NCBI RefSeq assembly: GCF_003144245.1
Contig: NW_020289983.1
Coordinates: 186,001-250,000 of the forward strand
Length of the DNA: 64,000 nt
Direction of reading: 5' to 3'
From: Jaminaea rosea
Lineage: Eukaryota; Basidiomycota; Exobasidiomycetes; Microstromatales
Position 1 is the stretch's first letter, and every line of letters begins with the position of its first letter. Made by a program: the position numbers and the translations under genes. Under the pieces are notes generated by a model. It had not been told where the DNA came from. It made no database searches and saw only the letters and a list, made by a program, of their open reading frames with translations. Positions 1,107-58,319 of this stretch are shown in pieces.

Positions 1107-3126
1107 ATGGTAGCTAAAGCGACGCGCTCACGACAGCCGCTAGCTTCATCGTCCTCGTCCGGGTGAGCGTCATTTCTGCTCAGCGCGTCCAACTGAGGAT
1201 GCCCATAGCTGATACTGGCCCCTCTCCATCGCACCTACGCTCAGTCAGATCAAGAGAGTATACGGCTCTTCTATTGGTCCCAGCGTCAAGCGCTTCCGCA
1301 GTCTTGGCCCCTCGTCCTTCGCCATAAATCAGGGATGGAACGGCGCTAGCTCAGTCAGCCCTCTCTCTTCTCCTTCTCCCTCTGCCTCCCACTCACTCGC
1401 CATCACCGCCAACACTGAGGCTCAACAACTCGATATGGGCACTTTCGATGGAGCAGGACCATCAAAGACGTCGAGATCCCGCTCTTCGTCCGCATCGTCC
1501 TGCCTGTCACTTCCTTCAACTGCCTCGTCGCTCAGCATGTTCGATGACGATGGCCACGACAAGGGCGGCCGCACTCAGGAGCAAGAGCCCACGCCGCCTT
1601 CTAGCCCATTCGAAGGCCAGCAGCAGTTCGATGACAAGAAGATCGCTGGCGTTGAGCTTGAAGGTGAACAGGCGCCCCCTAGCTCCCAGCCTGGCACGCG
1701 CTTCAATGGTCTTCTGAAGCAGAGACCATCCGGACTGAGTGCGGATGCGGACGGCATCGTCGAAGACAGCCTGGCCTCGACTTCAGCTCTCGTCGTGCCA
1801 GCGAAGAGGCAAAGGAGAGCGCCCAAGAGATCGCCCACAATGCTCAGCGAGCAGGCGTCCCGGCGGGCGTCGAGTTCAGCCACCACGAACTCACGTAGCG
1901 TATCAGCATCAACCTCCGCACATCCTCAATGCAAGGCTGGGTCGAGAGCTTCATCTGCATCCTCCGCTACGTCCTCTCTGTCGTCAGTCCCATCAGCCTC
2001 AGCCTCGCCTTCAGAGTCGCGCCGCCTCACGCCACCGCCATCTCCCTCCACGCTGCATGCGCTCGTCACGGCGAGCACATCACGTCCAGCCCCTCCGGCT
2101 GATCACCCAGGCAGGAGCATCGCCCACGCTCAAAGTGGCTGCGGAGGAGCAGACAGGCAGACTGGAATGCTCTTGAGGGACGGAAGATTGCTGGTGTACG
2201 AGGACGATGATAATGACGCGGGGTCCAAGAAAGCAGAGGTCGCTGTGAGCAACAGACCAGTCACTCGCAGTCGAGCATCAAGGGCACTTCCACCGCAAGA
2301 GCCGCCACAGCAGCAGCCGTCAGAGAAGGAGGAACCGCTAGCTAAGCGTCTCCTCAAGCGCAAGGCGTCATCGAGGTCTAGAGGGGGAGACAGCCGCGGC
2401 AGCGAGGCAGGAAGCTCGAAGGCAGTCAGCAGCCAATCTGGCAGCAGCAAGACCTCAAGGAGAGCCTCAAGCTCAGCAGCAGCGGGCAGCAGTAGCGGAC
2501 ACAGCAGCGGTGCATGCGGCTCACGTATGGTGGTCCTTCGTCGTCGAGGCCGAGCAAGCGCGCCGGCCCTAGTAGGCCGTCAAGTAGACGAAGAGCCCAG
2601 CACGTCCGACGAGGAACTAAGCGCCTTCTTTTGCAATCGTCCACCCAGGCCCAAATTACGGGCTCACGCACAGGGCGTCGCAGCCGGTGCTAGCAAGACG
2701 GGAAGGCCATCGATCCAAGCAGCCATCCGCGGTCGCGCTTCTCTCCCCTCCTTCCCAAGCACCGCCCCCTACAAGCTTCGCACCCCAGTTCTCCTGCCGG
2801 AGCGAAGCTACTATGCGAGGACGAAGAGGGAGGAAGCCAGTCCGACTCCAGGGGCATTGCAGCGACGCGCAGAGATCATAGAGAAGAGGGTTCTCCAGGG
2901 CATAGAGTCAGAGCCGCCGCTCGCGGGCAGGGGAAGAAAGGTCGGCGCAATTGAGGAGCTTGATGAGATGGACGGGAGGAAGGAGGAGGGGTTGCGACGT
3001 GATGAACCGGCTGCTGCAACTTCTTCGACCGCCGGCGATGCTGCCGGCATCAAGGGGAAAGGCAAGTTAACCAGCTCTGCCACGGTAAAGCGATCGGTCG
3101 CCATGAGAAGGAAGACGATGGGCTAA
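1107..3126 (+). CDS. Serine-rich basic disordered protein, probably nuclear
   Basis: Unrecognised protein of about 645 residues. The long open frame starts with an ATG at 1435, but an upstream exon fits better. ATG at 1107, exon to 1162, intron 1163-1244 (GTGAGC...CTCAG), then 190 bp open in frame straight into the 1435 ATG (56 + 1882 nt is divisible by 3). The added N-terminus contains the basic motif QIKRVYGSSIGPSVKRF, the least low-complexity part of the protein. The rest is rich in Ser, Ala, Arg and Pro with several basic clusters (PAKRQRRAPKR, AKRLLKRKASSRSRGG) that look like nuclear localisation signals. No enzymatic domain is visible. A chromatin- or chromosome-associated role is possible from composition only. 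Coding status fairly sure; start inferred. Confidence 0.7.
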
Positions 3127-3466
3127 GCCACAACGAGACTCGCATATGTCTATCTCATCTAGCACCCCAACTTCGACACCATCTCAGGACAGCACAATTG
3201 ACACCACCATCGCTACCTAGCAACGCCGTCTTGCTCAGCGGCGAAAATCTCTTCGTCTCGAAGAAGTGACCGAAGGAGGAGTGAGACCAAATGGCGACCT
3301 CATGAGAAGGAGGAAGGAGGGGATCATTGAAAGGGAGAGGGAGAAGAGAGGAGAAGGATCATCAATCTGGCGCTCAATTTGAGCTTCCTTTCGTTTCAAT
3401 AGCAATACCACCCACCATCATGCATCGCGACATTGCTCGTTACTTTATGACTATATATACACTACC
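3127..3466. other. Convergent 3' intergenic region
   Basis: About 340 bp between two genes that end toward each other. It should hold both 3' UTRs and polyadenylation sites. A short AT-rich run (tatatata) lies near 3450. No coding signal. Confidence 0.4.
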
Positions 3467-3970
3467 CTAACCGCGGCCCGTACTCTCCCCTACCCACCTG
3501 GCGATCGTCGCGTACAGATAGACGGGTACAAGCAACAAACCACAAAAGCCAAGCCGGGTGAGCCACATCACCACCGTCTCCCCCATGCTGCCGTCCATGC
3601 CGTCGTTGTCGTCACTCAGCCAAGCTGACCCGGCTGGTGGGAGGAGGACGATCCCCAATCCGAAAAGGAGAAAGAGAAGGGAGAGGGTGTAGATCAGGGA
3701 GGCCTGCTGCTCCGGGTCACTCGCGGGTGCATCTGCCGACCTTGCTCGTCGTTCAGCGTTGGGCAGTGTTGCGGGCGCGGTGCCTAAGCTCGAGGAGAGC
3801 GGGACAGCTGGGATGGTGGAGGCGGACGAGGTGACTGATCGACCCTGCTGAGGAGGCAAGGGCGAGAGGAGTGGCGCCACAGGGAAGTTGGGAGATGCCG
3901 AGGGACGCAAGCCACTGTGGAGTGTCGCATCATCCTGCTGGCCGTGCCCGTCATCCTGATGCGTGCGCAT
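3467..3970 (-). CDS. Two-membrane-segment protein, candidate PIG-Y/Eri1-like GPI-GlcNAc transferase subunit
   Basis: 167 residues from the ATG at 3970. The first ~90 residues are polar and disordered. Two hydrophobic segments follow: about 91-110 (LIYTLSLLFLLFGLGIVLL) and about 135-155 (LGFCGLLLVPVYLYATIARW). PIG-Y and fungal Eri1 are tiny two-segment ER proteins of the complex making the first GPI precursor; human PIG-Y ends with a P-V-Y-x6-W-x-G pattern, and here PVYLYATIARWVG gives a similar match. The similarity is short and judged by eye, and the long N-terminal tail is atypical. The gene lies only 62 bp downstream of the F-box/RCC1 gene stop on the same strand, and its frame is open for some codons upstream of the ATG, so an upstream exon or shared transcript is possible. 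Confidence 0.5.
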   Translation of the reverse strand: MRTHQDDGHGQQDDATLHSGLRPSASPNFPVAPLLSPLPPQQGRSVTSSASTIPAVPLSSSLGTAPATLPNAERRARSADAPASDPEQQASLIYTLSLLFLLFGLGIVLLPPAGSAWLSDDNDGMDGSMGETVVMWLTRLGFCGLLLVPVYLYATIARWVGESTGRG

Positions 3971-4032
3971 ATGGTGGTCAGTTCGGCGACACTCGTTTCT
4001 GAAGACTCGTCAAGGGCAACACCTACCCAGCC

Positions 4033-6325
4033 TCAACGTACCTCCTCCAATCTCTCGCCGTCTTGGTCTGCTTCTCCCTTGCACTCGTCAGCTCGGCCGC
4101 CTCGCAAAAGGCGCGAATCAACGGCGATGGCCGCTGAGTGCCAACCTGAGGATTGAACGAGGCACGTTAGAAGTCCGGTCAGCACCGCACTGCTCAATGA
4201 GAGGGCCCTTGATGACGCGCCGACTCACCAGCGAAGGCGATATCAAACACGAAAGTCCTTTTCACCTTCTCTTCATCTCCATCAAAGCGCACCTGCGTGG
4301 GTCGCTCCACCCCTTGATGAGGTATAACGCGCAGTGCCAGCCTATCATTGGAGGAACTGGACGAATCGCCTCCGTCCTGCCCCTGCGGCTGTCCACCTCC
4401 CTGCGGCCCTCCTACACGCGCCCCAGCCAGACCAACTCTGAAATGTCTCCCACCCAGCAGGGGTACCATGCTCCCGATCCTCTGTGGCGGCCTGCGCCTC
4501 TCTGGCTGCGGAGGTGCGACCGGCAAACTATCCCAAATGCCCAGCGCTCCCTGACTCCATTGGCCCCACGTCAACACCTTCCCCGAAGTGGTCAGCGCGC
4601 CGTAATGCCAGTCCCCTACGGAGATCTTGATCACGCCGATACCTTGTAGCTCAGGTTTCACGGAAGGACCAGTAGAGGAGATGGAGTCTCCTTTGCCCAG
4701 GAGAACTATACCGCCGTGATCGTCGTTGGAAGCTTCATCGTCCTGAGGAGTGGAAGAGGTAGAATAGGCAGCCCAGGTACGGAATTGGGCACTGATATGT
4801 TTGATCCTCAACTTCTCTCTATCTCTCACCAGCCCAGCCAGCCTCCCATCCCCTGAGCTGAAAGCTGCGAGCGCTGCGATTCGTGATGGCACGCAAAAGT
4901 GTTCCATGAGCTGCCATTCCCTCTCTGCCTCATCGAAGGCCCGCCTTAGTGCATTCGCCGCTCGCGTGCGGGCCAGCTCGTCATTGTTGTGTAGGTCTAC
5001 GCCTACTTGCCCTTGTGCGACGGGTGAAACGTCGAGCTTATAGACTAGCCCGTGAGAAGTGAGCGCAAGCACGTAATCTTCGCCTGCAGCTACCTGTGCT
5101 ATGCGTTGATGCTGCGGCGCACGTGTAGCTGTTGCCTCTGCTGCCTGCTCGGTGGAGTCGATGTCCATCTCTTCTGCAACTTCCTCTGGCGGGGTAGGAA
5201 GAGCGGGAAGTAGAACACGATGAACATCGCGCCATCTGCTCATTGAAAATTCGGAGTCACTTGATGAAGGTGAGCCGTGCGCACCCTGGGAATGCGTTGT
5301 CGGCGGATCGCCGGTGGTGGAGACCCAGTCTGTGTGCCAGTAGATGATGTGGGATTGCGGGCTGGTATTTGAAGCAGTGTCTGCCCGCTCAGCATCTCCG
5401 CTAGGCTGCTTCTCGACGAGAACAGCAGTAAAGTCCCATCCGGCCTCGAGCTGCACCACATTTGCCCTTCCCTCGCCGAGGGGCGCGAAGGGCTCGTCAT
5501 GTACTCGTACGCCGTCCCACGCTTTCCATTCGAGTATACTACTTGACTCGGTCAGAGACACTGCGTGCTTTCTGCCGCATGACAGCTGCTTGACTCTGAC
5601 AATGCGGCCATCTTTAGAACACGAGAGGTCCATGATCGCAGGAGATTCGGCCCTGATCTCCTCGTGAGTGAAGAGGTCCCCGTCCATCTGACCCCAGTAG
5701 AGGATGCGCCCCGTTGAGGTCAGGGCATGGAATGACCACCCTCCAGCTACGACCTTGATGGGCGTCCCTACACCGTCGCTGTCTTTGACAGCTTTGCGAC
5801 CACTGGCCGCGCCGAGACGATGAGCGAGGCTCTCCTTCTTTTGCCCCTCTGACGGTCGGCGGTAATCCAGCCTCAGAGGGAAAGGCGCGCCGCCCAGTCC
5901 ACGAGCCGTATATGCCGGATCGAAGACGAGGCCTCTCAGCTTCTCATCCGCAATATCGCCCTCTCTGATGCCTAGGCGGCCATGATCGCTCTGTCCCCAA
6001 ACGAAGACAGAGGGGGAGGAAAGACCCCGGTAGAGCTGCTGCCAGCCGGTGACTCGGGCCGAGGCGTGAGGAGGAAAGTTGAAGTCGTCTTTGCGAAGCG
6101 TCACGATGTCAGTGAGTGCGTCGACGAGGCGACTTCGAGCTGCTAATCACCCTGTATGCGCCTTCTCCAAATGAAATCATTGTCCGTCCACTGCTGCAGC
6201 GTCTTGCAAGCCTGTCGTAGTCTGGCCAGGTCTGCAGTCGGAATGTAGGGCAACAGGCAATCCAGAAAGACGTCATAGGGCAGCTGTAATAGTGGACATG
6301 ACTGCTGGCTACCTGACGCTGCCAT
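4033..6325 (-). CDS. F-box protein with RCC1-type beta-propeller (Saf1-like SCF substrate receptor)
   Basis: Three exons, about 715 residues: 6325-6151, 6088-4229, 4145-4033; introns 6089-6150 and 4146-4228. Exon 1 encodes an F-box (LQLPYDVFLDCLLPYIPTAD...WTDNDFIWRRRI), which docks on Skp1. The remainder has RCC1-type blades: VFVWGQSDHGRLG near the N-terminus, ILYWGQMDGD, KQLSCGRKHAVSLT, VLTWGQWSQGALG. The 3' intron is confirmed because splicing restores the blade ending FDIAFAGWHSAAIAVD, which the unspliced frame lacks. F-box plus RCC1 repeats is the architecture of yeast Saf1, an SCF receptor that targets adenine deaminase Aah1; target here is unknown. The first intron ends in an unusual CAAAG acceptor. 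Head-to-head with the small membrane protein gene. Confidence 0.85.
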
Positions 6326-6584
6326 CTTCTGATGAGTTGGTGATGGTGAGGAGAGTGGAGGAGGAGCTGCCAAGTGTTGGTTGGACGGCCGGAACTAGCC
6401 GCACTGCACTCACTCGCCTTCCAAGCTGAGTCGGGGCCACCCATTTCGATTCGACTCACGGAACGGAAGAAAGCCTGCTAGACCAGATCCAGTGTCCCAA
6501 CCTCGCCGCCGTCGGCCCTCTGGATTCCCAATCTTTCCCCGCACAACCCAACTCATACAACTCCACCATCTCGCCATCGCCAAC

Positions 6585-7007
6585 ATGGTCGTAGGCAGCG
6601 TTCTCGGTTGGGCAAGCGTCGGATTCCTTACGCGATGCTACCAGCTCGGGATTCAGAAGCGAAACATCTTTGACAGTGGGTAGTCGAGAGCGCGGATTCC
6701 TCATTGACTTTCTGCCTTCCTCGATCCACCTACTGACCGGAGCAATCCTTCACCTCTATCCCGTCTCTTTCCCTCACTCCTCTTCATCATCTCATCGTCC
6801 TCGTTCCCATCCTCACTCTCTCGTCCAGACTTCGGCGGCCACGCCATGCTCATGACTGCCTTCGGCGGTTTGGGCTACTACTTCCACGGCCTCAAGGAGA
6901 GGCAAGAGGCCTTCATCCAATACAAGACGGAGTCGATCCAGGCCAACAGGGAGAGGATGGCCGGCGTGTTGGAGGAGAGGAAGGCGCAGAATGGCGGTGG
7001 ACACTAG
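6585..7007 (+). CDS. Small 89-residue single-pass membrane protein, probably mitochondrial
   Basis: Two exons, 6585-6675 and 6829-7007, with intron 6676-6828 (GTGGGT...TCCAG); total 270 nt. Splicing joins ...RNIFD to NFGGHAMLMTAFGGLGYYFH. The second half contains one moderately hydrophobic segment (about residues 34-51), followed by a highly charged helical tail. No signal peptide or catalytic motif. The short length, single membrane segment and charged tail are typical of accessory subunits of respiratory complexes (for example complex I), but I cannot assign a subunit. The gene has a larger intron (153 bp) than its neighbours. Coding status is supported by the clean splice phase and by codon structure on both sides. 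Confidence 0.7.
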
Positions 7008-7177
7008 GCGGGCGAGAGTGATGGACTTCCCTTCGTAGAGAGAAAGAGAGGAGGAAAGGCAGGACTGTTCTTCGAGAAGCAAGATGCTCGAGAATGACAT
7101 GACTCGATCTATTACCGACAAAGCAGCCCACGGATCATGCGATGGGGCTCACTTGTTGCCTGCCGCCTCTCGCACGC

Positions 7178-8896
7178 TCACCCACAAATCTCCTCCTTAT
7201 CCCCTACCCCCTCCTCGGAACCCCGCACAAGCAACTCTATCTCCCCCCTGAAAGCAGCACAGAACAGGCCCAAATTATGATCCGATGCATCATCGCCAAA
7301 GGGCACTTCCAGCTCTCCATTGATCCCCACCACGCCCAGCAACGTCACTGCCACCAGCGTGACGAAGGGGATCACTTTCCAGCCTAGCTCCGTCACGAGG
7401 GTGAGAGGAAGGGCCAGCAGGTAGGCGGCCGTGCACTGCTTGAGGTGGATCCCGTACGCGGCGGGGATGGCTGCTGCTTTGATGCGGTGTAGCGAAGCAT
7501 GGGCTGATGTCAGGGAGGAGATCAAGGTGTTGCTGTAGTTGAAGCCTGCCGGGCCGGCGAGGTCGAGCATCCCGCTCGCTCGGGCGGCAGTGAGGTACAG
7601 GCTGAGCTGGTGGAGGGAGTACAAGGCGAGACTGGGTGGGGGCATGATGGGCTGTGCTTGAGATGAGGAGCTTTCCTCCTGCTGACGCAGCGATGCACCT
7701 GCGTCTGGCAGTGGTTCTGTCCCTCGGAGCAACGGCGTCGCCTCGCCAGAGTCGGCGTCGCTAACCGCAACGGTCGGGTGGCTCGCAGCGCTGGGGGTCT
7801 GGCTGCGGCGCCTGAACCAGCCTGTTGCACTCGAAGAGCGATCTGCCGTCGTCCCCGCTTCGACGTCTTGCTCACTCTGCTGCTTCTGCTGTTGCTGCCG
7901 CCTGCCACGGCCCATCGACTTGACCGTACCCATCGAGTCTGGCGCGAGGCTACGTAGCGTGCTGAAGTCGTATCCTGATGATGAAGCCTCCCCACCGCTT
8001 CCCGTCGTCGAGTGCATTGCAGCGTGTGAGGGCTGCAAGACAGCACAACTTGACTCCCACCTATGACAATCCTCCTCGCTCAGCACGCCCTCGTAATCTG
8101 GATAGCCGACGCCGTACTCCTCGCGCAGCTCGTGGGCGAGGGCAGTGAAGAAAAGGCTTAGTAGGCGAATCGCTCGGGTCTTCTTTCGGAGGCGACGGGC
8201 GTACACCTCGATTCCGTGGGAGAGGCCTGAGTCTTCCTCTCGACTAGCACCGACCGAGGCGGTGGAGGGGCGCAGAGTGGAGCGAGCCGTGTCGTACGAC
8301 GACGACGACAGGAGGGTATCTGCCATGCTGACCTTGTGCTGCATTTTACTCTCCTGTATTCTACCCTCCCCTATACCCACCGAGATATCAGCATTCAACC
8401 AGATCCACCTCCCCAAGCTCCTCCCCTCAGCCTCCGCTTGAGCCCAGACTTTTCTCGCCTCATTCCACTTCTCGAAGCATGTTCCCGTCCTAAAGACCAG
8501 CAGCAGACCAACCACGATACTGAGCGGCTGGACTATGGTTGAGGACGTCTTCCATTGTCGACCGTAGAAGGCGTCTGCACTGAAGATCAGGGCAGACCAG
8601 AGGGTGATGCCTAATACGGAGGGGAGAATTTGAGGGAGCACTGAATGTCGAATTCGAATGGCGTCACGAAAGAAGTCGACTTTGCTCAGCTTGAGCTTTG
8701 CTTGCTCCTCAGCTTGGAGAGATTGTAAGAGCGAAAAGTGTGGCAGGCTGAGAATCCCTCCTTTGGGAGATGGCTTGGATGGCGCCGTACCGCCATTTTT
8801 ACCGAAAGAAAAAACAAAGCCCCTATCTGGTCGTGCTGTTGATGCGGGCGAGGGAGGCGCAGGCTCCTGACCTGGTTGCGGAGGGGAAAACAACAT
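7178..8896 (-). CDS. Bestrophin/UPF0187-family anion channel
   Basis: 572 residues, single exon from ATG at 8896. The N-terminal half has the family signature: F-F-R-D-A-I-R-I-R-H-S-V-L-P, then a first membrane segment (PSVLGITLWSALIFSAD), a second (IVQPLSIVVGLLLVFRTGTC) and the conserved F-E-K-W-N-E-A-R. C-terminal parts show an L-S-S-L-T-S-A-H region and two adjacent hydrophobic stretches (LLALPLTLVTELGWKVIPFVTLVAVTLLGVVGING) leading to E-V-P-F-G-D-D-A-S-D-H-N-L, matching the family's conserved 'PFG.D..DL' end. A roughly 150-residue Ser/Gln-rich insertion sits in the middle, which is longer than in bacterial homologues. Fungal members are thought to be plasma-membrane or organelle anion channels. 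Convergent with the preceding small gene (171 bp apart). Confidence 0.85.
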   Translation of the reverse strand: MLFSPPQPGQEPAPPSPASTARPDRGFVFSFGKNGGTAPSKPSPKGGILSLPHFSLLQSLQAEEQAKLKLSKVDFFRDAIRIRHSVLPQILPSVLGITLWSALIFSADAFYGRQWKTSSTIVQPLSIVVGLLLVFRTGTCFEKWNEARKVWAQAEAEGRSLGRWIWLNADISVGIGEGRIQESKMQHKVSMADTLLSSSSYDTARSTLRPSTASVGASREEDSGLSHGIEVYARRLRKKTRAIRLLSLFFTALAHELREEYGVGYPDYEGVLSEEDCHRWESSCAVLQPSHAAMHSTTGSGGEASSSGYDFSTLRSLAPDSMGTVKSMGRGRRQQQQKQQSEQDVEAGTTADRSSSATGWFRRRSQTPSAASHPTVAVSDADSGEATPLLRGTEPLPDAGASLRQQEESSSSQAQPIMPPPSLALYSLHQLSLYLTAARASGMLDLAGPAGFNYSNTLISSLTSAHASLHRIKAAAIPAAYGIHLKQCTAAYLLALPLTLVTELGWKVIPFVTLVAVTLLGVVGINGELEVPFGDDASDHNLGLFCAAFRGEIELLVRGSEEGVGDKEEICG

Positions 8897-22130: not shown

Positions 22131-22419
22131 CGCTACTAGTGCTAGTTGATGATGGTCAAGACGAGGTGAGGAAAGGAAGAAGAGGTTGAGCCTCCTTCGC
22201 TCCGCTCGCTCCCTTTCTCTCCTTTCTCCCGCTCCTTGCTGCATCGACGTGGAGCTCAGAGCGGAGTCGCGACTGAGACTTGGCAGACGGAACGGAGAGC
22301 GGGCCGAGCGAGGCAAAGGCGGGTACGGAAGGAGGCTGCGATAGCGAGCTCTGATTCCTCTTGCCTTTGCTCCACCCATTATTCGCCAGCTGAGAGTGTA
22401 GACACGGCCCGCCGTCAAA
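22131..22419. promoter_or_regulatory. Shared divergent promoter, SERCA / PQ-loop protein
   Basis: 289 bp between outward-facing start codons. It contains pyrimidine-rich tracts (cgctccctttctctcctttctcc on the plus strand near 22206). A bidirectional promoter is the simplest reading. Confidence 0.5.
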
Positions 22420-23901
22420 ATGGTCGACTCGACATTCGGCCTATTAGCCGCAATCGGCATGGCGGTCGGCGCTCCCCTCATTTACGCAGACCAAGCGCAC
22501 TCCATGGCTAAAGTGCGCGACTCGACCGGATTCAGCAAGGATGTATGCGCCGTTGTCTTGCTCTCCAATATCGCTCGCTTGGTCTGGTGGTTCCACGAAC
22601 GATACGAGCTCGTCCTAGTCGTCCAGTCCTGCCTCATGGTCGTTGCACAGATTGCGCTGTTGAGCCTTGTGCTGCGATTCCAGCCGGGAAGCTATGCCTC
22701 GTCCGCGTACACGAGTTCTTACCAGGATTACCTGAGGAGCGATCCGGGACCCGCAAGACCAGGTAGACCCAATGGCGAGGCTACTCGCCCCCGGCCTGAG
22801 ATCAATGTCGAGCCGCCGACGCCAGAGCAGCAGCACGCGAATCTGCCGCCGCCCGCGACAGCATCGTCAAGTAATACGAACGAGTACAGCAACCCTGGCT
22901 TTCGCTCTCTCTTCGGGGGAGGCAGCTCGTCATCGTCAGGGGGTGGCTATGCCCCCATCGTCGGCGACTTTCGCTTCCCGACTATGCCCCTCCTCGACGC
23001 CCCCGAAGGCTATGCAGCTTCTCAAGACGAACACGACGGAGAAGAGGATACGGACCCTGTCTCCCTTCCCACGCGCCTGGCAAGACAAAGCAAGCACTCC
23101 TTCGGACGCTTTGCTGGCCGACTCAAGCCGCTCTTAGGCGTACGCAACGACGGCAGTCTTCGTGCAGACGGCTCCTCGAGCGGTCGCCCGTTCGGCTTCT
23201 GGACCTGGACGAGCTTGGAAAGCTACATCGTCTTCTTGGTCTGCTACACCCTCTTTCTCCTGGCGCTACAGATCACAATCGGCCGCGTGTCCTCAATGTA
23301 CAACGCCCTGCTCGGCCTATATGCCCTGGGCCTGGAGTCTACTTTGCCGCTCCCGCAGCTCATTGCCAACCAAAAGCGACGTTCCCTCGCCGGCTTCCGC
23401 TTGTCTGTTCTTGCCGGCTGGTCTCTAGGTGACCTGTTCAAGGTAGTCTACTTTCTCTTCTTGAAGCCAGGAAGCCCATTCCAGTTCTTGGCCGGCGCGC
23501 TGTTCTCTTTGAGCGTCGACATTGGAATCGTGGCGCAGGCGAAGATGTTTGCAGAGAAGACGGCAGAGGATGAGGAGGAGCTGAGGGTTGCCAGTGAGGG
23601 AAGAAGGATGGAGGAGGCGGAGAGGCAACGAAGAGCTGGTGGGGATGGCACCGGTAGAGACCAGCAACAGCAGAGATCAGCGACAGCTGCGAGGAGCGGC
23701 GGCAGCAGCAGCAACGGTCCGCGGGCGAAGAGCGCGCCATCATCTGCCAGTGCGAGTCAGGATCCGTGGCTGCAGGAGCACGCCGATCTCGATGAGGATG
23801 CGGTGCTGTTTGACTCCTCTCATGGACTGCCAGACAATCAACAGGGCAGGCAAGGGCCAAAGGCAAGTCAGCATTTTACGATCGAGGCGGATGATGACTG
23901 A
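22420..23901 (+). CDS. PQ-loop repeat membrane protein (SLC66A2 / yeast Any1-like)
   Basis: 493 residues, single exon. Two PQ-loop units: the first at residues 1-90 ([20 protein letters not shown], then a Phe-Ser-lined second helix and a third helix), the second at about 270-385, with the diagnostic motif L-P-L-P-Q-L-I-A-N and F-x-L-S-V-L-A-G-W-x-L-G-D. A ~170-residue polar Ser/Gly-rich loop separates them. Length and order fit Any1/Cfs1 and SLC66A2, Golgi/endosome proteins linked to phospholipid asymmetry and flippase function. Other PQ-loop transporters (cystinosin, Ypq) share the fold; the long middle loop and the C-terminal acidic tail favour the Any1 group. The C-terminal tail is Gln/Ser-rich and disordered. 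Confidence 0.82.
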
Positions 23902-27243: not shown

Positions 27244-30200
27244 ATGGCGACGACATTTCCGCTCGACAAGTCGAGGGTGCTCACAGGGGAGGGAGCCCTT
27301 GCGGTCGCACCTGCTCCGCCATCCAACGTCAACACTCTGCCGCGCCTGTTCCAGCATCAAGCGCAGGCCCAACCTCAGGCCACGGCCTTTTCATGTCAAG
27401 GAAGCGACCACCTCCAAGAACTGACCTACGCCGAGGCTGACGGCGTTGCTCGCGTCGTAGCCGCCCAGCTCGCTGGCCTGCACGGCGGGCGCACCTCGCG
27501 TGATGAGGCGCCAACTGTAGCTATCTGGCTGGAGAAGGGCATATCTCTTCTCCTCTCCATCCTCGCCACCACCTACAGCGGCGCAACGTGGGTCCCATTT
27601 GATCCCGACGTACCTGTAGAGCGAGCCGCAGTCTGCTGCGCTGACTCATCGGCCACGGTTCTCCTCTGCGATGCGATCCACAGAGAGCGAGCTGACGATG
27701 TTGCGAGCAGATTGCCCGCGGGCAGCTTGCAAGTTGTCGAATTTACCGAGCTCAACGAGACCAGCCACAGCACCGCTTCAGCAGCCCAAGCTGAGGGTCC
27801 TCGTCCCAGTGACGCCGCTTACTTGATCTACACATCCGGTACTACGGGTACGCCGAAAGGAATTGCCATCCCACATTCTGCTGCCCTGACCTTTGCACTA
27901 AGCGAGCGAGCCGTCCTTGAGACCAGCAGCGATGATATCGTCTGGAATGGTGAGTACCACACGCCCGCCTTCCGTTTACGTACGCGCAGACTGACTTCAT
28001 GTTTTTGCGCGCGCAGGCTTCTCTCCTGCCTTTGACATGTTCGTTGAGGAGATGTGGGTCACAATCGCTGGCGGTGGACACCTCGCCATCGGTACCCGAG
28101 AAGAATGCCGTGACGTGCCCGGCCTACCCGCCATCTGGACACAACGTGGCGTCACGGTCGTGAATGCGGTCCCCACTTTGATTGGCATCATGGGGATTGC
28201 CCAAGCAGATGGGGACTCCAAACTCTTGCCAGCGTGTGTTCGGCTCATCAATCTGGGCGGAGAAGCTTGTCCTCCCGCTCTGGTCTCCAAGCTCGCACGT
28301 CCCGGCCTGCGGATCATCAACACTTATGGGCCGACAGAGACTACCGTGACGGCTACATGGGACGAGCTGATGCCCAGCGCAGCCGTGACTATCGGTCGCC
28401 CCCTCCCATCGTACCACGCTTGCTTGCTGCCCATCTCCGAGGACAGCGGACCTGTATCAGACTTCCCACTCGAGCTCTTCGAAGGCGTTGAAGGCGAGCT
28501 TGCGATCGGCGGTCCCTGCGTCGGAATAGGCTACGTCGGTCGGCCAGACTTGACGGCGCAGAAGTTCATTCGGCACCCGCTGGCTCCGCAAGGCTGCGAA
28601 GGGGAGCGTCTGTACCGCACAGGCGACCGAGTCAGGCTCACGGCCGAGCTGAAGATTGCCTTTCTGGGCCGCATTGATACCCAAGTGAAGCATCGCGGCT
28701 TCCGCATTGAGTTGGGGGAGATTGAGTCACTCCTCTCAGGCCATAGGGATGTACAGGCCGCAGCCGTCATCCTCACCAATCCAAATACGGACACCGCCCG
28801 ACTCGAAGCTTTTGTCGTTACCGCACCTGGTGCGCCGCAGGATGCCAGCTCGCTCAACGCCTTGGCTGCTGAGCACCTACCTACGTACATGAGGCCTGAG
28901 GAGGTCCACTTCCTCGAGGCGGATGAGATGCCGCGTTTACCGAGTGGAAAGATCAATGCGAAGGCGCTGCATGATGTGGCTGCTCGCAAAGCTGAGGAGG
29001 CCGCCGCTTCCAAGGTAGTTGCAATCGATGAAACCGACGTCACGGACAATGACGTAGATCCCTCGACTCCTCTGGGTATCCTCCTCACCACAATGGCCAC
29101 AGTCTTCCCTTCAGCAGGGCGTGTTTGCCCCACCGCCGACTTCTTCATCGACCTAGGTGGACACTCGCTCCTCGCAGCCATCCTTGTCTCCAAGCTCCGC
29201 CAAGCCAAGAGCGAAGGAGGCGACGCGCCGTACGCCTCCATCGGCCTGCCGGATATCTACGAAGCTCGCACTCCACTCGCTATTGCCGCGCGCTTCTCAG
29301 CCGGCGACGACGATGCTTGCAGTTCAGAAGATGCTACGGTCACTGGAGAGCCAGAAGACCAGCTCCTCACCGAAGGCACGGGTCCCACAACAGGCAGTCA
29401 CTGGCCCGTCTCCCCGCGCAACTTCGTCCTCTGCGGCATTGCTCAAGTCGTTCCGCTCCTCTTCTTGTTTTTCCTCATGTCCCTCGAAATCTTGGTACCC
29501 TACCTCATCTTCGACTACATTCTTCACATACGTGGGGTTGGCTGGGCGATCCTAGTCACGTACGGCGTCTTTGTCTCCGCTCCCGTACTGCTCGGCGTAG
29601 TCGCCGTCATCGGCAAGTGGATGGCCCTGGGTCGAGCAAAGGAAGGGGAGTACCCTCTTTACGGAGTCTATTACTTCAGGTGGTGGCTTGCGGATCGATT
29701 TGCCAACTTGGCAAACACAAAAATTCTGGCCGAATCGGCCTTGTACCCGCACTTCCTCCGCGCTATGGGCGCGAAGGTTGGGAGCTACACACATCTCGGC
29801 GCGATGGCAATTGGTGCAGCGGCTGACCTGGTCGAGATAGGCGACGATGTCGTCATTGGGTCGGACGTGGTGCTCATGACCAGTGTGGTCGAACGTGGTC
29901 GCCTCATTCTCAAGAAGGTGATTATCGAATCCGACGCCATCATCGGCTCCAACTCGGTCATCGAAGGCGGCGCCACCCTCTGCGAAGGGGCAGAGCTCGG
30001 TGCCCTATCCATGGTTCCCGATGGGATGCGGGTTCCAGCCTTCCAGCGATACCACGGCTCTCCCGCTCGATTCGACCGCGAGATTAAGGAAGGTGAAGCA
30101 GCGCAAGGCAAAACCTCTCGCCCTTCCAGAGCGCGGGCATTCGCCATGCTGCTCGGCAACGCCTTCATCGTTGTCTTCGTCCTGCCGCTCCTCTACTACA

Positions 30201-31783
30201 TGCCGCAGATCCCCGGTCTAATGCTCTTCGACCTCGTTGATCTGAGCGACATTGGCATGTGGGGGCAAGTAGCCGTGCTCTCCATCCCGATCGCCTTCGC
30301 CTACCAGATAATCGTCTACGTGCAGCTCATTGCCTTCCGCTGGCTGTTTCTCGGCGGTAGATTGCGCGAGGGCACATACCGCGTCTACTCTACGTGGTAC
30401 CTGCGTAAGTGGTTCGTCGACCGTATCATGGACTTGGCGCTTGATGTCCTCCATCCAGTGTTCGCCACGTTGTACATCGTGCCTTTCTTGAGGCTGCTCG
30501 GCGTCAAGGTGGGTAGAAGAGCGGAGGTGTCTACTGCGAGAGGGCTGCAATTCGAGCTGCTCGAGATTGGAGATGAGAGCTTCGTTGCTGACGCGGTCCT
30601 CATGGGCGACACGATCGTGCGGGGCAACGAGTTGACGCTCAAGAAGACGAAGCTGGAGAGCAGGGCGTTCGCAGGCAACGCCTCGCTCCTGCCGCAAGGC
30701 ACCGTCCTCCCTACCGGTTCTCTCGTTGGCGTACTGTCCATCGCCCCTCCGCTGGACAAGCCCCTGGAGAGAGACACCTCCTGCTTCGGCTCGCCTCCCG
30801 TGCTCATGCCCGCCCGCCAAAAGGAGGAAGGAACAGGCGACGCCTCTCTCCTCTTCAACCCTTCCCGCGGCCGCATCGCCATCCGTCTCCTTATCGAAGG
30901 CCTCCGCATCGTGCTTCCCCGCGCAATCATCATCTTCGGCCTCGGTTTCTCCCTCAACATCGCCTATACAGGATACCACGGTATCGGCGCCGTCTACACG
31001 CTGTTGATGTTGCCCCTCTTCTACCTCTTCATGATTGCACTCCCCTCGATGCTCTTCACGATCGCGCTCAAGTGGCTGCTGATCGGGGACTACCGCAAGA
31101 AGGAGACCAAGTGGCCGCTCTGGAGCCTCAACGTTTGGCTGAGCGAGGCAGTCACTTCGACTTGGGAGACGATCGCGGAGCCCTTTCTTGCTCAGTTACT
31201 CGTCGGTACACCGTACTTAGCGTGGTTCTTCCGAGCATTGGGCGTCTCCGTCGGCAAGAGGGTTACGCTCCTCTCCTCGGACATCACCGAGTACGACCTT
31301 GTCTCCCTTGGAGATGAGGCTGTCATTAATCAGCACGCCGGACCGCAGACGCACCTGTTCCACGATAGAATCATGCAGCTGGGCACGGTCAAGTTGAGCG
31401 AGAGGGCGGTGATGAAGCCGTACTCCATCTGCTTGCCAGGGAGCGAAATCGAGGCGAGTGCGCATCTTGGTAGCCTGTCGCTGCTGATGAAGGGTGAGAA
31501 GCTGCCCGAGGGCACGGCATGGGAGGGCGCTCCTACGAGGCCTCGGAGCAGAAGGAAGAGGGCACCGGCGGGTGCAGCGAAAATGGGCAAGAGCGCGCCA
31601 TCCTCGTCATCTTCGTCGACCGCGTCGAAGAGAGGCAGACCTCTCTTTGAGCTTGGCACTTTGCCCTTTACATCATCAAAGTCGCGTACCGTCACCACGC
31701 TGCCGATGACGAACGTCTCGACGGCGGCCAGCAGCCTGCGAGCGACTAGCCATGAGCGTTACGCCAGCGAAGGCTCTGCTTAG
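27244..31783 (+). CDS. Pls-like nonribosomal peptide synthetase (A-T-membrane/LbH x3), predicted poly-amino-acid synthetase
   Basis: Exons 27244-27949 and 28017-31783, intron 27950-28016; 1490 residues. Adenylation domain 30-560: A3 YLIYTSGTTGTPKGIAIP (193-210), A5 TYGPTETT (338-345), A7 YRTGDRVR, A8 QVKHRGFRIELGEIE, A10 with K547. Carrier domain motif DLGGHSL with phosphopantetheine Ser619. There is no condensation or thioesterase domain. Instead six membrane segments in three pairs alternate with three homologous soluble modules, each opening with a G-x-x-V-G motif (GAKVG at 820, GVKVG at 1064, GVSVG at 1311; period about 245 residues) and hexapeptide-like left-handed beta-helix repeats (EIGDDVVIGSDVVLM). 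This is the architecture of epsilon-poly-L-lysine synthetase Pls, whose tandem modules join amino acids into isopeptide chains. The product is inferred to be a homopolymer of a basic amino acid. C-terminal tail is basic and Ser-rich. Confidence 0.87.
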
Positions 31784-32463: not shown

Positions 32464-33696
32464 ATGGAGAACTACCAAAAGATTGAAAAGGTCGGAGAAG
32501 GTGAATGAGCCCGGCATCGAGGCGCGCATTGGCTCAGCTCAGATGCTCACTCCTTCCCTCCTTGACGCGCTCGCAGGCACCTATGGCGTCGTGTACAAAG
32601 CTCGAGATCTCACACCACAAGGTAACGGCCGTATTGTTGCCTTGAAGAAGATTCGTCTCGAAGCAGAAGATGAAGGCGTGCCAAGCACGGCCATCAGAGA
32701 GATTAGTCTGCTGAAGGAGCTCAAGAACGAGAACATTGTCAGGTGAGCAGCGCGGTGCTCAACTCTCCCTCATCAAGACGCTAAAGTATTCACATTCGTC
32801 GGCATGGTCAGGCTATACGACATCATCCACCAAGAATCCAAGCTCTACCTCGTCTTTGAGTTCCTTGACCTCGACCTGAAGAAGTACATGGACAACGTTG
32901 CAGGCTCATCTGATGGTCTGGGGCCGGACATCGTTCGCGTGAGTGCGGCGATGGCTCCCTCTCGCTCTCTGCTCATCGCTGCATGGCCACTCATATCCAC
33001 TCTCCCTCTTTGTCGCCGTCCTGCCGCACGTCGATCGCTCGCAGAAATTCACTTTCCAGCTCATGCGCGGCATCTACTACTGCCACGCTCACCGAATCCT
33101 CCATCGCGACCTCAAGCCGCAGAACCTTCTCATTGACAAGGCGGGAAACCTCAAGCTTGCCGACTTTGGACTGGCACGCGCTTTCGGTATCCCGTTGAGG
33201 ACCTACACGCATGAGGTGAGCACTGGCGCAGCATGGCCAACAACAACTTCCTGCCCCCGATACTGAGCTAAGCTTCCCTATCCCCCGGCCTCAGGTCGTC
33301 ACACTATGGTACCGAGCCCCCGAAGTCCTCCTTGGGTCGCGCCACTACAGCACCGCGATAGACATGTGGTCCGTCGGATGCATCTTCGCCGAGATGGCAA
33401 TGAAGTCTCCCCTTTTCCCCGGCGACTCGGAAATCGACGAGATCTTCCGCATCTTCCGTACCCTTGGCACCCCGACGGAGAACGACTGGCCTGGCGTCAA
33501 GTCTCTTCCTGACTACAAGGCGAGCTTCCCGCAGTGGGCGGGAGTCAGCCTTGCGAAGGCAGTGCCCAGTCTCGACGCGGCAGGACTTGAGCTGCTGAGA
33601 GGAATGCTGGTGTATGACCCGGCAGGAAGGATAAGCGCCAAGAGAGGTCTGGGCCACGAATACTTTGCTGGAGTAGGTGGAGAGGTGATGGCATAA
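32464..33696 (+). CDS. CDK1: Cyclin-dependent kinase 1 (Cdc2/Cdc28)
   Basis: Master cell-cycle Ser/Thr kinase, 300 residues, five exons: 32464-32500, 32577-32742, 32812-32938, 33045-33215, 33295-33696. Exon sums are phase-consistent. Splicing gives [23 protein letters not shown] (inhibitory Thr14/Tyr15), the exact cyclin-binding helix [20 protein letters not shown] with catalytic Asp, [10 protein letters not shown] (DFG), the activation-loop Thr in PLRTYTHEV, and YRAPEVLLG. The full length matches the family. The presence of [14 protein letters not shown] and [13 protein letters not shown] distinguishes it from Pho85/CDK5. The first exon is only 37 nt and the first intron splits the glycine loop, a common position in fungi. 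No residue essential for catalysis is missing. Confidence 0.97.
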
Positions 33697-34458
33697 TACG
33701 CGATGAAGGGCAGATGGGCGTGTACGAAGGACGAGAACACACGCTCGGCTTCCCGCGACGCCCAGCCCAATAAGAGGGCATCTACCTCCCATCTCGCTGC
33801 CCCATCTACGCTCCCCACTTCCAAGACCGCACCGGACTCGACCCTCGACGACTACATCGCACCGCACCGCAAGCGTAAGCCGCCTATCGCAAGGCAAGCA
33901 TCAGAAGAGGTTGCCGTCTATCCTGACAGCGCCCGTTCGACACGCTCGCCCAAGGCTGCTGCAGCAGCGCTGTGCTCGCCATCCTCTCTACTCCTCGTCC
34001 CGCCCATACGGCGATTGTATTATTCTCCTGTCCTTCGTCTCGTTCTATCTGCGCACTGATAGTTGTTCCCAGAAGCCTGTGCAAGCGACGACGCACGATG
34101 CAGGACTGCTTCGTCTCGCCTTTGAAATAGGCTGACACTGAGTCACAACCGTGGCAGGCGGGGGCGTCGCACGACAGGCGGACCAGGAAAAGGCCGAGGT
34201 TGGACCGTCGAGTGGCTTGATTGGACCCTTGAACGAGACGCAGCTGCGCTTTCCATCTTTCCAATCTTCCTAAATCCTCCACTCAGTCCTCTCACCTAGA
34301 TCTGCTCATCTACTCTCATTCAAGCTATCAGGACCTTCTCGGATTGCTCTCTTGTAGCAATAGACGCTACGCCGGCCTCACAAGATACCTTCCAACCAGC
34401 ATCTCAATCCCCGGCCACGCCACTCTGTCCTTCCCCCGTCCCGGCTTACATACTCAGC
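33697..34458. other. Intergenic region, CDK1 3' end to MBL hydrolase promoter
   Basis: 762 bp between two plus-strand genes. Short overlapping frames only, none with motifs. Pyrimidine-rich just before 34459. I see no RNA gene. Confidence 0.35.
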
Positions 34459-56256: not shown

Positions 56257-58319
56257 CTAGTAGCCCAGAGTTAGCCTTCTCAGCGTCTTGTTTTCCTTTC
56301 GCCGCGCCCGCCTCCACCCTTTAACGCGGTACCACTCCTCGCGGCCCTCTCGCAAGTTGGCCTCCGTCGTCTCTCTCCAATAGCGCTCAGCCTGCGCAGC
56401 ATCGGCTGGTAGCTCTCCGGCTGTGGTGCTAGCCCTGTTCTGTTCGCCTCCCTGGGCAGTGGGGTCATGGCCCGCCCCATCGATATGCTCCAAAAGCGCA
56501 TCCACATAATCAAAATCGCTCGGCGACCCGAAGACGAGCGGCATCGGTCCCTGATTTCCCCTCACCCCACTCTCATCTCTCTCTCCTTCCTCCACGTCCT
56601 TACTGATCCTCGACTTCCACCTCTCAGGATCATTCATCGCTAAACTCCGACTCAATGCAGGCAACTTGCGCGCCTTCCCCGCCCAATAAGACGCAATGTA
56701 CCTCGCCTGAGCGTGTGTGAACACGAAGGGTACGACGCCCGTGGGCAGGCCAAGTATGCCCAGTGAGTCGTCGGGAGAGTAGAGGAGTAGCCAGTCGTCC
56801 AAGTTGGCAGGGCCCGGTGCACAGGGTGTTGACCAGGGTGACAGCGAGGCTGTGTGAGGTGGGGCATCGTGGCCCTGCGCAGCCTCGCATCGAGCTCGTT
56901 GGAGGGCCTTTTCTTCCTCTTGGCCGCCCACTATCTCCCTCTTTGGAAGCGCTGGCACAAGCGGGTATCTCCCGAACGGCTCCTCGCTGTAGTCCACGAA
57001 CTCGTAGCTTACGTTGAAGCCCGTAGCAAACACGATGGCATCCACGTCCTCCAGTCGCGTCTCGTCCTCCAGTAGGAGGGTCCCGTCCTTCTCCACTCTT
57101 CTGATGCGTGGAACCACTTTGATCCCTTTGCTCCAGGCGGGGCTATGCTCGTCGAGAGGATCATAGTCCATAGCGGGCGGCTTGGCCAAATCCTCGATCG
57201 AGTTGATGACCTCTGGTCCCTCACCCCGCTTCACCTGCTGAATCCACTCTTCCTTCCCACCCCCGAGGATCTCTGCCTCAGAACGAACGATGTACCCTCT
57301 CAACTCTCTCGCCACGTCCATTCCGGATGAGGAGTTGCCGACGATGACTACGCGCTTGCAGGAAGAGAAGGAATGCGGGGTGCGATACCATGCGGAGTGG
57401 AGGAGCTTGCGAGAAGGCTTGTTGGTACGGTGAGCGTTGGCATTGGGGGAGGTGAAGTTCCACAGACCAGGTATGGGAGGAAGTGAGGGAACATTGCATC
57501 GGCCATTTGCGATCACGACGCAGTCGTACTCGTCGACGCTTCTTACGCCTGCCTCGAGGTCAAGACTTTCTATCTGCCACGTAGACCCCTCGCCTTCTTG
57601 TCCATCGTCGTGCGCTGGGCCTCGTAATCGACGCAGCTTGGTGACCGCCGTATTCAGCCTGATATCGCCGCCTAGTGCTCCGCTCTCCTCGCAGTCTGCG
57701 GCAAAACGAATCAAGTACTCCTCCACCTCGCTCCGCGAGGGGAAGGCACCTGATACATCGCGAGGCCGAAAAGGGTAGTCTCTGTAGCTCATGAGGTCGC
57801 AGGGTATGTTGGTACGGAGGCCCTTTTGAGCGGAGACAGGGCGAATGATGGCTTGTGAGTGGCAATCGTGCTTCTCAGCGTGCATCGGCTGCTCACCTCG
57901 TACATTGCTCCGATCGGCCACCGTCTATCTTCTTCACCCTCGCCTTTTCCCTCCGAAGGTCCCGAGGTAGGCCAACCTCTACCATGCTCATCCCACCTGA
58001 TGATACATTCCCCCGGCTCTTGGTCACACATCCACAATCCGGCCCCCAACTTAGGTCTGCGCTCGTAGATTGTCCTCTCGAACGCCACCTCGCTATCAGC
58101 TGCGTGTGAGAGGTGGTGCAGCTGCTGGGCTTGAACAATCCCGGCTGAGCCACCGCCGATAATTGCGACACGTTTGAGTCTCCTGCGGCCGTTGACTGCG
58201 GAATGAGCTACGGGACCTCGGCCGTTGTGACGAGCATCACTGGAGCCGGCGGATCCTCCCTTATCTATGCCAGCTGGGGTGGCGGGCGTACCACCGCTAG
58301 CCGCAGCGTGGGGCGCCAT
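56257..58319 (-). CDS. Flavin-containing monooxygenase (FMO-like)
   Basis: 662 residues; exons 58319-57897 and 57822-56257, intron 57823-57896 (acceptor TCAAAAG). The first ~45 residues are low-complexity. FAD motif: RVAIIGGGSAGIVQAQQLHH. The junction gives MYEGLRTNIPCDLMSYRDYPF, the FMO family's 'LRTNIPKEL' motif. The NADPH motif is RVVIVGNSSSGMDVARELRG; the HSAWYR segment supplies the FMO fingerprint His. A C-terminal DAIVFATGFNVSYEF is the conserved 'ATGY/F' motif. A Glu/Gly-rich loop (SEGKGEGEEDRRWP) interrupts the N-terminal domain. FMOs oxygenate soft nucleophiles (N or S); yeast Fmo1 makes oxidising equivalents for the ER, but no signal peptide is visible here. Substrate unknown. Confidence 0.87.

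Follow-up and report, generated by a model that had tools for sequence, protein, structure and literature searches.

Several members of the Pls/PosA family of cationic homo-poly-amino-acid synthetases have been described. PosA of Acinetobacter baumannii makes delta-poly-L-ornithine (adenylation (A) domain structures 8g95-8g98), whereas Pls of Streptomyces albulus has a lysine-type pocket (A domain structure 7wew). In fungi, Epls makes poly-lysine, and its description in PMC7179176 gives it the same layout and a lysine-type pocket conserved with that of Pls. That article speaks of Ascomycota, and the string "basidiomyc" does not occur in it. PMC10522769 extends the family to several genera of fungi and assigns the majority of its fungal sequences to a branch of ornithine type; a basidiomycete that it lists, Botryobasidium botryosum, has a different code. 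What has already been published (PMC10522769) thus comprises the family, its occurrence in fungi and an ornithine-type branch within them. Here we describe a member from Jaminaea rosea, a yeast-like basidiomycete of the Microstromatales. As far as the open-access literature goes, the J. rosea enzyme and its more complete gene model are new, as are the near-fixed pocket code of its nearest relatives, an antiporter neighbour in bacteria and a tree that crosses fungal phyla. An initial sequence-only reading had called such products rarely noted in such fungi, which is fair for basidiomycete yeasts but overlooks the several fungal genera covered by PMC10522769.

We have analysed a window of 64,000 nucleotides of J. 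rosea DNA. The synthetase gene (27244-31783, forward strand; Table 1) has two exons and encodes, with the intron spliced out, a protein of 1490 aa (GFSPAFDMFVEEMW). If left unspliced, the frame is broken within the substrate-pocket motif. The protein database match P0001 from J. rosea was 100% identical over the C-terminal region and represents the same gene. This public protein is 41 residues shorter than the spliced model because the in-frame residues 116-156 are omitted. The relative P0015 has a stretch similar to these residues, so their absence from the public protein suggests an annotation error.

Table 1. Coordinates of the synthetase gene, its encoded domains and other loci mentioned in the text (window positions unless a locus is given).
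Feature	Position	Strand	Basis
Exon 1, synthetase gene	27244-27949	+	Read from sequence, translated
Intron, 67 nt, GTGAGT...CAG	27950-28016	+	Sequence reading; frame restored by splicing
Exon 2, including stop codon	28017-31783	+	Read from sequence, translated
41 codons (residues 116-156, in A domain) absent from public J. rosea protein	27589-27711	+	Comparison with public protein
Adenylation domain, ~residues 36-553, intron inside	27349-28969	+	PF00501 36-408, PF13193 470-547, TIGR01733 61-486
Pocket motif D242 M243.. E246 (D-M-E, ornithine type)	28034-28048	+	Family motifs, PDB-chain alignment
Carrier (T) domain, ~residues 585-660; S619 at 29165-29167	29063-29290	+	LGGHSL motif
Module 1, helix pair + beta-helix, residues ~702-927	29414-30091	+	Module homology, structure model
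Module 2, residues ~940-1174	30128-30832	+	Module homology, structure model
Module 3, residues ~1186-1410; invariant H1348 at 31352-31354	30866-31540	+	Homology, model, conservation
PQ-loop membrane protein, ~3 kb upstream of synthetase	22402-23898	+	Frame scan
Flavin-binding monooxygenase-like reading frame	56260-57924	-	Frame scan
Acyl-ligase-type paralogue, locus L046 (G000:C8:190000-199500)	3122-7913	-	Domain matches

Judged by its sequence, the protein is a new member of the Pls/PosA family. The NCBI model TIGR02353 ("Pls/PosA family"), which represents the C-terminal part, matched residues 711-1408 with 573.4 bits (cut-off 423.1) and was covered nearly end to end (positions 2-694 of 695); the same kind of search exceeded this cut-off in one of 14 named control genomes. 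The carrier serine S619, located in an LGGHSL motif, was Ser in all 121 aligned protein rows (the best 120 of 1715 matches plus the window protein). The Pfam carrier model PF00550 was unreported for the synthetase, and the T domain was assigned through this invariant motif. No condensation or thioesterase family was found in the synthetase by the domain search. The three homologous membrane/beta-helix modules have a computed spacing of 244-247 residues, and a structure model built on 6 sequences displayed three long-helix pairs (the predicted six membrane helices) together with three tandem beta-helix domains. A simple hydropathy scan gave extra peaks at residues 1039-1064, modelled as shorter helices, and at two sites inside the A domain. 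Among solved structures, the C-terminal domain matched by sequence hexapeptide proteins only, over part of its length, and the single match under E 0.001 in the viral fold library was an acetyltransferase. This agreed with the sequence-only reading, which had proposed A and carrier motifs (S619) with neither condensation nor thioesterase domains, three homologous modules about 245 residues apart and a Pls-like A-T-three-module layout. Neither of the results it had named as refuting, a canonical NRPS as best match or a fold lacking three beta-helix modules, turned up.

The substrate pocket was read from the family motifs as DMENNGTVTK (D242, M243, E246, N285, N314, G316, T338, V346, T347 and K547). 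Reading the PosA and Pls PDB chains via alignment to a bacterial relative gave DMEHNGTVSK and DAESIGTVV, respectively. Like PosA, the window enzyme combines the A-T-three-module layout and the TIGR02353 family name with a D-M-E pocket and then N-G-T-V; it differs in its eukaryotic host, in two pocket positions (H to N and S to T, from PosA to window) and in that its product is predicted. With Pls it shares layout and family, but not the D-A-E-S-I-G-T-V-V lysine pocket. The PosA substrate-contact positions D217, M218, E221, T304 and S313 correspond to D, M, E, T and T in the window enzyme. According to PMC10522769, D217 and E221 are essential in PosA, T304 and S313 help, and the residue at the M218 position sets chain length: lysine enzymes have Ala there, PosA has Met and diaminopropionate enzymes have Phe. 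The window enzyme has M243 at position 2, T338 at position 7 and T347 at position 9, in keeping with the PosA-type combination of Met, Thr and a hydroxyl-bearing residue.

The code was nearly fixed among the aligned rows. E246, which corresponds to PosA E221, the acidic pocket position assigned to the side-chain amine, was Glu in 82 of the 84 rows with a letter there, and Met occupied position 2 in 82/83. The full code was readable in 82/121 rows (75 DMENNGTVTK, 3 DMEHNGTVTK, 2 DMENNGTVSK, 1 DMENDGTVTK and 1 DSFNNGTVTK), counts that describe the nearest relatives and not the whole family, since the rows derive from the best 120 of 1715 matches. The odd code DSFNNGTVTK belongs to P0083. The other 39 rows were gapped in the code, and we infer that in many of them the gaps stem from gene models. 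The 28 bacterial rows were more varied: 15 DAESIGTV(I/V)K (lysine-type), 4 DFEC-type, 4 DMEH-type, 2 DGESISVVNK and 3 incomplete. We regard it as reasonably probable that the J. rosea protein is a membrane-bound Pls/PosA-family synthetase making delta-poly-L-ornithine.

We have then examined the gene history in trees obtained by quick searches with SH-aLRT support only, from which the PosA C-terminal part and Epls were left out. A tree of 55 rows placed the fungi mainly in two mixed groups, one joining Microstromatales with Dothideomycetes (Mycosphaerellales kin and Aureobasidium) and the other containing Kockovaella, Ceraceosorus, Leotiomycetes, Eurotiomycetes, Thozetella and Venturia. Tilletia branched earlier than both. 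The bacterial outgroup did not form one side of any branch, as P0113 grouped with it. Forcing together the 8 basidiomycete rows cost 358 log units (p 2.7e-38) and forcing the 7 Ustilaginomycotina rows cost 344; both arrangements were rejected. In a 20-row test without the long Kockovaella and Tilletia rows, and also without Venturia and bacteria, uniting Microstromatales and Ceraceosorus (5/20 rows) cost 283 (p 1.4e-80). The gene has probably moved between phyla of fungi in the past, transfer being the simplest reading that fits the tree, but Microstromatales as one clade was not rejected (p 0.124), so the tree shows no direction of transfer.

The alternative is an old fungal duplication followed by many losses, with no transfer. 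It is compatible with the lack of an indicated direction, the two mixed groups might each descend from one of two ancient copies, and gene presence is known from the matches listed (best 120 of 1715). Yet the Basidiomycota and Ustilaginomycotina clades were strongly rejected, and both would call for many separate losses. The C-terminal identity of the window protein was 65-72% with Dothideomycetes and 45% with Tilletia, whereas a paralogue in the same genome (locus L046) was 78-79% identical to its Tilletia and Ceraceosorus counterparts. We consider the duplication and loss scenario rather unlikely. Two of the protein matches carried plant labels, P0009 (71% identical to the window protein; Quercus suber) and P0139 (a match to the paralogue; the fern Adiantum nelumboides), and both are probably fungal contamination of plant assemblies.

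The paralogue served as a same-genome control for the synthetase tree. It resembles the synthetase in having an adenylation-carrier region followed by hexapeptide and membrane stretches, but its adenylation domain is similar to acyl-CoA ligases and not to amino-acid A domains, and TIGR02353 reached 187 bits in 3 stretches, below the cut-off of 423. Among the best 120 of 955 matches, its identities were 67-89% with named Ustilaginomycotina (including Malassezia) and 52-58% with Agaricomycetes; some of these matches also had RING-finger Pfam matches. A 13-row tree set J. rosea, Parajaminaea, Ceraceosorus, Tilletia, Thecaphora, Violaceomyces and Malassezia against five Agaricomycetes, without the cross-phylum mixing of the synthetase. 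No ascomycete was recognised among the matches listed (best 120 of 955), so the control tests the basidiomycete side only. With this control, the synthetase tree would clearly illustrate how a large membrane enzyme can have a history at odds with the fungal phyla. No described function was found for this paralogue type in the open-access literature.

Returning to the predicted ornithine polymer, the pocket suggests that the A domain would activate L-ornithine with ATP, and the invariant carrier motif that ornithine would be loaded onto a phosphopantetheine arm at S619. By analogy with the characterised relatives, the three fused beta-helix modules would then join the units through the side-chain amine. 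In the structure model these modules may form a pseudo-trimer that resembles hexapeptide acyltransferases in its construction and is attached to the membrane helices, which suggests that three fused protomers replace the usual acyltransferase trimer; such a stand-in has been proposed for PosA (PMC10522769). A candidate catalytic residue is H1348 in module 3, which was His in 106/106 protein rows with a letter there and in 28/28 bacterial rows, and was the sole His outside the carrier motif in the list of residues common to fungal and bacterial rows.

The enzyme might instead activate ornithine and yield something other than a free secreted homopolymer, such as short oligomers, a tail on another molecule or an intracellular store. 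Chain lengths in the family vary, with 7 to 12 units for PosA in vitro (PMC10522769) and 8-18 or 24-35 units in Epichloe strains (PMC7179176). Delta-poly-ornithine inhibits yeasts in vitro (PMC10522769), so a fungus releasing it freely would run a risk, and the window frames scanned around the fungal synthetase contained no recognisable gene for ornithine or for export. Against this, the characterised members named in PMC10522769 make homopolymers, and the C-terminal part of the J. rosea protein is a full-length match to the family model. We judge a product other than the free polymer to be improbable.

No gene cluster was seen among the 28 other window frames scanned, many of which had no match. 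The recognised neighbours were general: a P-type cation ATPase, a USP8-like deubiquitinase, the PQ-loop protein, an oxidoreductase, a metallo-beta-lactamase fold, TsaD, an ORC match and others. Visual reading of the sequence added a cyclin-dependent-kinase-like frame near 32800-33700. PQ-loop proteins include basic amino acid transporters; the neighbouring one had no PDB relative by sequence and no NCBIfam match. In two Rhodospirillales loci (L014 and L028; code DMEHNGTVTK, with C-terminal identities of 40 and 41% in the best segments), an open frame begins 8 bases before the synthetase end. It matched the TIGR00905 basic amino acid/polyamine antiporter family with 484 and 486 bits (cut-off 409), beginning at residue 45-46 of the open frame. 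It came nearest to the TIGR03810 arginine-ornithine antiporter (532 and 540 bits), though without reaching the 591 bits that this model requires. As L014 and L028 are closely related, they amount to a single instance in favour of the ornithine reading. In the 30 other loci of the scan, several of them with short flanks, tblastn found no antiporter match; these included a Mucilaginibacter pair with a D-M-E code (DMEHNGSVTK). The class of the L028 genome had a match in 10/385 genomes (G001 included), and its 9 new rows gave 8 readable codes, none D-M-E and 2 lysine-type.

The sequence-only reading had favoured a lysine polymer, and this substrate is probably wrong on pocket sequence, because position 2 is Met as in PosA and not Ala as in Pls. 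As first-choice substrate, lysine was ruled out on the pocket residues. The mass added per residue is 114.08 Da for ornithine and 128.09 Da for lysine. The pocket also has N-N-T where Pls has S-I-V. The window A domain scored 228 bits with PosA and 166 with Pls, but 5u89 (229.5 bits) and LgrA chains (388 bits, two stretches summed) matched it equally well or better, so A-domain kinship alone is weak evidence. Family and layout are common to the lysine enzymes, and the fungal Epls makes poly-lysine, but with a pocket reported as conserved with Pls (PMC7179176). The PosA A domain tolerates lysine to some extent in adenylation, without lysine polymer being found with PosA (PMC10522769). A lysine-polymer synthetase is, in our view, quite improbable. 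An ordinary NRPS or unrelated acyltransferase has a negligible chance and was ruled out, for although the A domain by itself is similar to numerous NRPS counterparts in the PDB search, the full-length TIGR02353 match above the curated cut-off and the lack of condensation and thioesterase families contradict it.

More tentatively, and with slightly less than even confidence, we propose that fungi hold a large family of delta-poly-L-ornithine synthetases, distinct from Epls. Such a family would have passed between Basidiomycota and Ascomycota on two or more occasions, and its present hosts would include basidiomycete yeasts, black yeasts and leaf-spot fungi. As the polymer inhibits yeasts in vitro, producers would have to resist or contain their own product. 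If so, poly-ornithine, which the open-access literature documents for a single bacterial enzyme, would be made widely among fungi, and Epls, whose use of lysine is proven, would stand apart from these enzymes.

Six bacterial loci (L050, L052, L053, L054, L055 and L058) had codes of neither lysine nor ornithine type, namely DVEANGTGSK, DLED(I/L)G(S/T)VVK and DFEHSGTCSK; a DLED code is mentioned as unassigned in PMC10522769. The J. rosea genome also contains two long open frames, of 4683 aa (G000:C10:389488-397335) and 4148 aa (G000:C14:121055-128650), with three AMP-binding matches each, which by sequence are likely conventional multimodular NRPS genes.
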